The position numbers and the translations under genes were made by a program. Of a DNA stretch of 39,520 bases, positions 30,432 to 32,203 are shown one piece after another (the stretch's first letter is position 1; the number at the start of each line of letters is the position of its first letter). Under the pieces are notes generated by a model. That model saw only the letters and a list, made by a program, of their open reading frames with translations, had not been told where the DNA came from and did not search any database. The DNA is from a virus. The stretch lies in IMG/VR virus record IMGVR_UViG_3300044825_000819, positions 1-39,520 of that record; one strand, 5' to 3'.

Positions 30432-30710
30432 ATGCGCGAGAAAGAAATCGAGAAATACCTCTGCAAGACCGTCGAGCGGATCGGCGGCCAGGCGTTCAAG
30501 TTCACCTCGCCCATGAACCGCGGCGTGGCCGACCGGGTGGTGTGCCTGCCCGGCGGCACGGTGTGGTTCATCGAGGTGAAGGCGCCAGACGGGCGGCTGA
30601 CCGAGCTGCAGAAGCGGTTCGGCCAGCGCATGACGGAACTCAAACAGAACTATGCAGTGCTCTACACGAAGGAGGAAGTGGACGAATGGTTTCGTACTAT
30701 AATGAAATAG
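30432..30710 (+). CDS. VRR-NUC domain nuclease
   Basis: 92 residues from the ATG at 30432 (a GTG at 30423 is possible). VRR-NUC features: RGVADRVV with the metal-binding Asp, and WFIEVKAPDGRLTELQ with the E-x-K core followed by the conserved Q. Stand-alone phage VRR-NUC proteins of this size are structure-selective endonucleases, thought to assemble as dimers. Its end overlaps the methyltransferase start by 25 bases. Confidence 0.85.
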   Translation: MREKEIEKYLCKTVERIGGQAFKFTSPMNRGVADRVVCLPGGTVWFIEVKAPDGRLTELQKRFGQRMTELKQNYAVLYTKEEVDEWFRTIMK

Positions 30711-32203
30711 ACCCCTACGCCGCGCAATGGTTGCGCAACCTGATCGCCAATAAACTGATCGCTGATGGAGATGTCGATGAAAGATCAATTTGCGACGTGG
30801 CTGCTGCGGACCTCCACGGTTACACCCAGTGCCACTTCTTCGCAGGCATCGGCGTCTGGTCCTACGCCCTCCGTCTCGCCGGATGGCCCGACGATAGACC
30901 TGTCTGGACCGGCTCCTGCCCCTGCCAGCCGTTCAGTGCAGCCGGAAAGGGCAAGGGCTTCGACGACGACCGGCACCTCTGGCCTGAGTTCCACCGCCTC
31001 ATCAGCGAGTGCCGCCCTCCAGTCGTCTTTGGAGAACAAGTTGCAAGCAAGGACGGCCTCGGCTGGCTCGACACTGTACACGCTGACCTTCAAGCATCGG
31101 GTTACGCCTGCGGGGCTGTCGATTGGTGCGCTGCGGGCGTCGGCGCCCCGCACATCCGCCAGCGCCTCTGGTTTGTCGGAGAGCGGCTGGCAGACGCCCA
31201 AGGTCAGCGATACGGCCAGCGAGAAGTGGGAGACGAAGAAAGCCCGCAACGCGCGTCTGGTGGCGGCGGGAAAGACGAAAGGTTGTGGCAGCCCCGCCCT
31301 TCCGGCGCAAGCGGAGATGGCGGGCTGGCCGACACCGAACGCCGTGAATGGCGATCGGGCGGCCTACGCAGATTTCGACAAGTTGATGGCGCGGAAAGCG
31401 GCGGGGCGTCAGCAGAACTTGCAGGAAGTCGTGATGATGGCCGGTTGGCCGACGCCTCGCTCGACGGACGGCGACAAGGGGTCGAGGACGGCGGAAGGTT
31501 GCGAAGCGGAGATAGCGCGGAAGGGACGGCTGGACGATCTGCCATCAACAGCGACGTATCTGGCTGGCTGGCCGACGCCGACGAAGGGCAACGCGGACGG
31601 CTCGCAGATTGCGAAAGACGCCAGCGCAACGGGGCGCAGGCCGGATGGCAGCAAGGCGACGGTGAGCCTCAATCAGGTCAGTCAGATGGCGGGCTGGGTC
31701 ACCACCACCACCAGGGACTGGAAGGACAGCGGAGCGGACATCAGACCGAGGCCGGATGGCTCGGAGCGGTTCGACCAGTTGCCGAGGCAGGCGAACTTGG
31801 CGGGCTGGCCGACGCCGAAAGCGCGGGATCATCATACGGAAGGGCCGGGGCAATTCAGTCCGTCTCTGCCGTCAATAGCGGAACGGTTGGCGGGCTGGCC
31901 GACGACGACGACGACAGATGCGGCGCGCGGCAATGGGACGATCAGGCCACACGACACGGGCATACCCTTGCCACAGCGAGTGACGATGATCGACAGGGAC
32001 AAGCCCGCCCGACTAACGGCCACTGGGGAGCTGCTGACTGGCTTCACTGCCGGGATGGCCGCTGGCGGCCAGTTGAGCCCGGCACATTCCCGCTGGTTAA
32101 TGGGGCTCCCGCCCGAGTGGGACGCCTGCGCGCCTACGGCAACGCAATCGTCCCGCAAGTCGCGGCAGAAGTGATCGGAGCGTACCTTGATGCTCGCCCT
32201 TAG
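30686..32203 (+). CDS. C5-cytosine DNA methyltransferase with repeat-filled target region
   Basis: 505 residues. The ATG at 30686 follows AAGGAGG. Motif I FFAGIG near residue 52, motif [15 protein letters not shown] (catalytic Cys) near 82, VVFGEQV, motif [16 protein letters not shown] near 160. Then about 300 residues of GLAD-type repeats in a Gly/Asp/Arg-rich region where the target-recognition domain should be, and motifs [20 protein letters not shown] near 485. It likely modifies phage DNA against restriction. A second conserved-looking frame (30777-32174) lies wholly within it. Confidence 0.88.
30777..32174 (+). CDS. Overprinted GWPTP-repeat protein inside the methyltransferase gene
   Basis: 465 residues in another frame, start ATG at 30777, six bases after GGAG. 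N-terminal third: Ser/Thr/Ala/Pro-rich with [20 protein letters not shown]. Then seven repeats of the form AGWPTPxxxD, spaced 30-50 residues, and an end [18 protein letters not shown] know this GWPTP and [14 protein letters not shown] pattern from other phage and metagenome proteins, so the frame is conserved. The repeats are the same DNA as the GLAD repeats of the methyltransferase. Function unknown. The main alternative is that it only reflects methyltransferase constraints. Confidence 0.6.

Follow-up and report, generated by a model that had tools for sequence, protein, structure and literature searches.

A selected reading frame within a phage C5 cytosine methyltransferase gene probably supplies the recognition part missing from the main enzyme

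An ORF for a C5 cytosine methyltransferase (MTase) in the IMG/VR virus record IMGVR_UViG_3300044825_000819 wholly contains a second ORF in the +1 frame, which raises the question of whether one piece of DNA encodes two selected proteins here and what the second of them might do. The whole stretch of DNA analysed, 39,520 nucleotides, is called the window below.

The two overlapping reading frames

The 465-codon ORF that the first-pass annotation reported inside the MTase gene was confirmed at 30777-32174, as was the GGAG six bases before its ATG. The repeats claimed for this frame were present as seven GW-x-T-[PT] modules, along with a 17-residue sequence that had also been noted. The same annotation ascribed motifs I, IV, VIII and IX-X to the MTase; we found I, IV, VI (as EQV), VIII and X in frame 0, whereas motif IX sits in the nested frame. 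Two further ATGs in frame with the nested ORF occur at 30765 and 30771. The features of the locus are as follows.

30686..32203, + strand: frame-0 C5-MTase ORF, 505 aa (ATG at 30686, stop at 32203), with core motifs I-VIII, a predicted disordered GLAD-rich linker and motif X
30767..30770, + strand: GGAG, Shine-Dalgarno-like (SD), 6 nt 5' of ATG 30777
30777..32174, + strand: nested +1-frame ORF, 465 aa, basic; proposed beta (recognition/motif IX) subunit
30833..30853, + strand: MTase motif I (HFFAGIG), frame 0
30920..30937, + strand: MTase motif IV (PCQPFS, with the catalytic Cys), frame 0; constraint on the nested frame starts about here
31008..31154, + strand: conserved nested helix and beta-hairpin segment, over MTase motifs VI-VIII; pLDDT about 78-88, the best part of the nested model
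31034..31042, + strand: MTase motif VI variant (EQV, not ENV), frame 0
31148..31177, + strand: MTase motif VIII, frame 0
31185..32003, + strand: nested array of seven GW-x-T-[PT] modules at the MTase TRD position, where frame 0 encodes the GLAD linker
32070..32123, + strand: nested C5-MTase motif IX, from hhalign
32123..32164, + strand: MTase motif X, frame 0, overlapping the end of the nested ORF

The GC content at the locus was about 63%. The MTase is flanked by a weak VRR-NUC match on its upstream side and an SNF2-type helicase on its downstream side, and the same viral record encodes a family A DNA polymerase, a P22-like portal and a terminase-like protein.

Selection on the nested frame and its spread

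We collected relatives with three separate queries: the nested protein, the MTase N-domain on its own, and the nested C-terminus on its own, the last against GTDB genomes. The N-domain set, which was not conditioned on the nested frame, comprised 74 distinct loci with an intact MTase. Within-gene synonymous shuffles predicted 224 stops in the +1 frame of these relatives and 17 were observed; the frame was stop-free in 69 of the 74 loci (4 expected from the shuffles). The +2 frame, by comparison, held 840 stops versus 778 expected. In the GTDB set, the overlapping frame encoded the MTase C-terminus in all 80 loci, and the N-domain was in the matching frame in 76. Both frames were kept in approximately 191 of the 202 distinct loci classified, with some 'broken' calls stemming from match boundaries.

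We then aligned the DNA regardless of frame and measured mismatch at each MTase codon position over 94 independent pairs, using each locus once. Values are given for positions 1/2/3.

Upstream of the nested start:.09/.06/.30
Motifs IV-VIII:.12/.08/.19
Linker:.22/.12/.10
End of the nested ORF:.11/.06/.15
After the nested stop:.11/.08/.25

Within the repeat region, the third MTase codon position was the most conserved (sign test 55:4, p=2e-12, the same 94 pairs), and the same codon-position pattern was observed in 5021 pairs. Because MTase position 1 corresponds to nested position 3, the linker mismatches are the signature of a coding +1 frame. Fourfold-degenerate MTase sites followed the same boundaries, varying freely to residue ~80, frozen where the nested ORF is constrained and variable once more past its stop, while the first 45 nested residues were weakly constrained. 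Many of these sites were invariant across about 150 loci, and the frozen ones included V119 (GTT in 147/150), A150 (GCG in 140/140), G151 (GGC in 136/137), V463 (GTT in 146/146), P465 (CCC in 140/140) and P469 (CCG in 152/152); this set was chosen for an open nested frame, but such a choice alone does not freeze particular bases. Those frozen over the nested helix and hairpin were V119, L128, A150 and G151.

The nested protein is thus clearly under protein-level selection, and dual coding of the locus is near certain. Stop counts, codon positions and fourfold sites all uphold the earlier impression that both frames look coding. The accompanying idea of a repeat array serving two proteins held in that the nested frame is constrained within the linker, but equal service did not, as the GLADA frame appears to be a disordered passenger linker. 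A search of relatives for loss of the nested frame or its start, proposed as a check at the same time, found both kept across several phyla.

The start codon is conserved, and an SD is often present. Nested ORFs began at MTase nt 91, 109 or 121, with nt 91 (30777 in the window) the commonest (101/196 loci), although this clustering is partly built in because starts were picked with a preference for these three positions, where ATGs do exist. An SD of at least 4 nt preceded the nested start in 82 of 153 loci, compared to 14% at control positions. At starts of the nt 109 class the SD overlies the MTase D-E-R-S motif, and the Arg codon is the rare AGG in 35 of 52 loci versus 139 of 1687 across the N domain. 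An early stop interrupts the nested frame in N15 and L117, where starts further on leave the constrained part intact.

The arrangement is unusually widespread. It was found in Pseudomonadota, Actinomycetota, Cyanobacteriota, Bacteroidota and Spirochaetota, and following up weak hits showed this layout in phages of Mycobacterium, Microbacterium, Acinetobacter and Stenotrophomonas, in cyanobacterial and gut phages, in alphaproteobacterial-type loci and on plasmids of Bacteroides, Leptospira and Nostoc. Among PHROG families, 1008, 31772 and 26627 were matched by the nested protein and its relatives, with E-values for the window protein of 4e-42 (PHROG 31772) and 2e-33 (PHROG 1008). Matches of other +1 products to PHROG 1008 included those from mycobacteriophage (4e-54), cyanophage (4e-23), the Baddon type (8e-28), Bacteroides (3e-9) and Leptospira (4e-18). 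Every +1 protein tested matched this family, so we treat them as a single family.

Database records describe these loci unevenly. PHROG 1008 and 31772 are labelled 'DNA methyltransferase' yet match the +1 product and not the catalytic chain, which will mislead annotation pipelines. Both ORFs are annotated in GenBank GU196281 (phage K1ind3), the nested one as 'Mte8-like', a label that we traced to the K1 phage annotation alone and that carried no functional information there. In mycobacteriophage XFactor the nested ORF appears as gp67, a hypothetical protein. The record for Komagataeibacter phage phiKX1 (L082, LC644975) shows a gene over part of the nested ORF and leaves the MTase frame unannotated, and Salmonella phage SAP012 (L247, NC_053008) has both frames intact at 2014-2809 with neither annotated. 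An algal-virus-named record, Dunaliella viridis virus SI2 (HQ332136), holds a typical bacteriophage version of the locus at 31056-31316.

Some loci departed from the common layout. L018 (2919-3872) showed a split MTase N-domain match (residues 1-126, then 97-175 about 360 nt on), as if from an insertion in the core, with both frames open. The nested frame was open to 728 nt upstream of the MTase start in L063, L071 and L075, a possible fusion or continuity with the upstream gene, and for ~640 nt beyond the MTase stop, to the locus end, in L070, a possible fusion with the downstream gene. The motif X region occurred twice in frame 0 of L250 (LADGLPAGMAGLRAGDD... then LLAHGVPARAGKLRALGNAIVPQ) and L082.

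Distribution of methyltransferase parts between the frames

The frame-0 product carries motifs I, IV, VI and VIII in an MTase fold, the catalytic features of PF00145. It matched PF00145 with an E-value of 5e-14 over residues 74-167 only, PHROG 363 with 5e-83 and HhaI with 1e-17 over the core, and foldseek returned HaeIII and HhaI, mainly across the core. We looked in this product for an in-frame TRD and motif IX, and both were absent: the PF00145 match ends at residue 167 and the linker is disordered in the model. The frame-0 model of a relative (L127) had a core with pLDDT mostly 85-97, residues 187-235 below 50 and, C-terminal to the linker, a low-confidence stretch followed by a confident motif X helix. 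Frame 0 is therefore predicted to be without a folded TRD.

The W-x-T-P modules of the nested proteins are variable and rearranged, numbering 1-8 per locus in our sample by automatic count. A role in reading DNA is putative, suggested by these two properties together with the basic nature of the protein. No Pfam or NCBIfam family was found for the nested protein; among the 74 relatives there were scattered single weak Pfam hits only, and its profile had no match to PDB sequences or Pfam. The nested product modelled alone gave a pTM of 0.29 and was poor except for the helix and hairpin (three rows from annotated records were left out of the AlphaFold input alignment), and foldseek with this model returned nothing at E <1.

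Motif IX of the nested protein was compared with that of the Baddon-type (actinophage-type) branch, which has motif IX in frame 0 in 68 of 80 loci and in the +1 frame in none. The two aligned by hhalign with an E-value of 1.7e-12 and a probability of 97.7 (reversed control 0.2), and the Baddon-type branch in turn aligned with ordinary Dcm over motifs IX-X (E 5e-4). Compared directly with ordinary Dcm, the nested motif IX scored 15.0 versus at most 7.9 in 30 permuted controls, with a probability of 2.5%. As the direct match is weak, the assignment of motif IX in the nested protein depends mainly on the Baddon-type bridge. Its location in frame 0 in one branch and in the +1 frame in the type found in the window means that motif IX has switched frame between branches. 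The Baddon-type +1 ORF, which has LPTP modules, ends ahead of the frame-0 motif IX, at a median distance of 4 codons, and a nested ORF that is without motif IX means that delivery of this motif cannot be the sole role of the nested chain.

A proposed two-chain enzyme, its precedents and its alternatives

The +1 protein probably contributes a DNA-recognition part and motif IX, both of which the main enzyme lacks. We consider it reasonably likely that one dual-coded gene yields a two-polypeptide C5-MTase working like M.EcoHK31I. Frame 0 would give a catalytic chain with motifs I-VIII, a flexible linker in the usual place of the TRD, and motif X. An internal +1 start would give a basic chain with the helix-hairpin, the variable GW-x-T-P array at the TRD position, and motif IX. 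Association of the two chains is most likely, with the +1 chain contacting DNA or choosing the target and contributing motif IX in trans. We infer the translation of both frames, as we do their association and recognition by the modules.

Parts of this arrangement have precedents. Multispecific C5-MTases of Bacillus phages carry TRD arrays, with variable modules of ~40 aa between motifs VIII and IX; their modules lie in the MTase frame, in contrast to the +1 frame here. The small chain of M.EcoHK31I is encoded within the large-chain gene, in a different frame. In this enzyme the large chain carries motifs I-VIII and X, the small one carries motif IX, and both are required (Lee, Kam and Shaw 1995; PMC3404938); the TRD is predicted in the large chain (PMC3404938). 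Compared by description, the distribution of motifs is alike, a large chain with I-VIII and X but not IX and a second chain with IX. The two differ in that no folded TRD is predicted in frame 0 here and a variable module array lies in the +1 frame, so a recognition role of the modules lies outside that precedent; the present family also occurs in phages and prophages of several phyla. M.AquI is similar in having the catalytic core on one chain and part of the recognition region with motif IX on another (PMC3404938), but its motif X is also on the small chain, whereas here frame 0 retains motif X and the overlap of the genes is almost complete. A second coding frame hidden inside a phage methylase gene is also known from ShiLan, as an out-of-frame HNH endonuclease (PMC11855218). 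That case is an inserted homing endonuclease of scattered distribution, unlike the apparently ancient partner spanning catalytic motifs described here, and we rejected a homing endonuclease of this type since Pfam showed neither an HNH nor any other endonuclease domain in the nested protein or the 74 relatives, apart from the scattered single weak hits. We found no published account of the MTase/+1 overlap in the literature searched, which consisted largely of papers open without subscription.

A nested protein that is real and selected might instead have a job separate from methylation (e.g. anti-restriction or regulation), the overlap being old overprinting and the likeness to motif IX a relic. 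Joint function does not follow from selection and an own start alone, and the basic protein with its small independent helix-hairpin is in keeping with such a job. We regard it as rather unlikely, given where the nested ORF occurs. The two frames almost always occur together, and the nested ORF was confined to C5-MTases that have no in-frame TRD. Thirty-two C5-MTases with full-length PF00145 matches, and so their own TRD, had 452 stops in the +1 frame versus 447 expected, and the nested motifs were absent. Among those with partial PF00145 matches, a core-only group that was small in our sample, the nested motif IX was in the +1 frame in three of four and absent in L411, still a clear contrast with the full-length set. 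Free-standing nested genes were sought and none were found, the GTDB genomes sampled by the nested C-terminus always encoding the MTase C-terminus in the overlapping frame. One weak nested match without an MTase (L304) was to a TPR-like protein and looks spurious. A separate job also leaves the nested protein holding the very motif that frame 0 is missing.

Programmed frameshifting, in which a +1 shift after motif VIII would add the modules and motif IX to make a hybrid enzyme, appears very unlikely. The stop of the Baddon-type +1 ORF so close before the frame-0 motif IX is consistent with it. However, the nested frame is open and constrained over motifs IV-VIII, a part that such a shift would not use, its start codon is conserved and often has an SD, and motif X stays in frame 0, so that a complete hybrid would need a second shift. 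Passive conservation of the second frame, also raised in the first-pass annotation, could draw on the GC content and the weakly constrained first 45 nested residues for a +1 frame held open through the MTase or base composition, but it is refuted as the main cause by the synonymous shuffles, the codon-position rates, the frozen fourfold sites and the ordinary C5-MTases that have no such +1 frame.

Returning to the two-chain enzyme, a broader history is possible, and we put it forward tentatively: the recognition half of C5-MTases in several phyla may have moved to the +1 frame of the catalytic half, giving swappable TRD modules while the core stays undisturbed, with the two halves having overprinted each other, as the frame change of motif IX hints. 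Few same-strand overlaps of more than 1.3 kb with selection on both frames have been documented in DNA phages, and the present one recurs in several bacterial phyla. If the +1 protein supplies the recognition part and motif IX, as is probable, such seemingly single genes are probably two-part enzymes. Many phage 'DNA cytosine methyltransferase' single-gene annotations would then describe half an enzyme, codon-optimised cloning of the annotated ORF would erase the other half, and predictions of target specificity would draw on the wrong frame. The locus also offers a natural system for the co-evolution of two overlapping proteins while one of them shuffles its modules.
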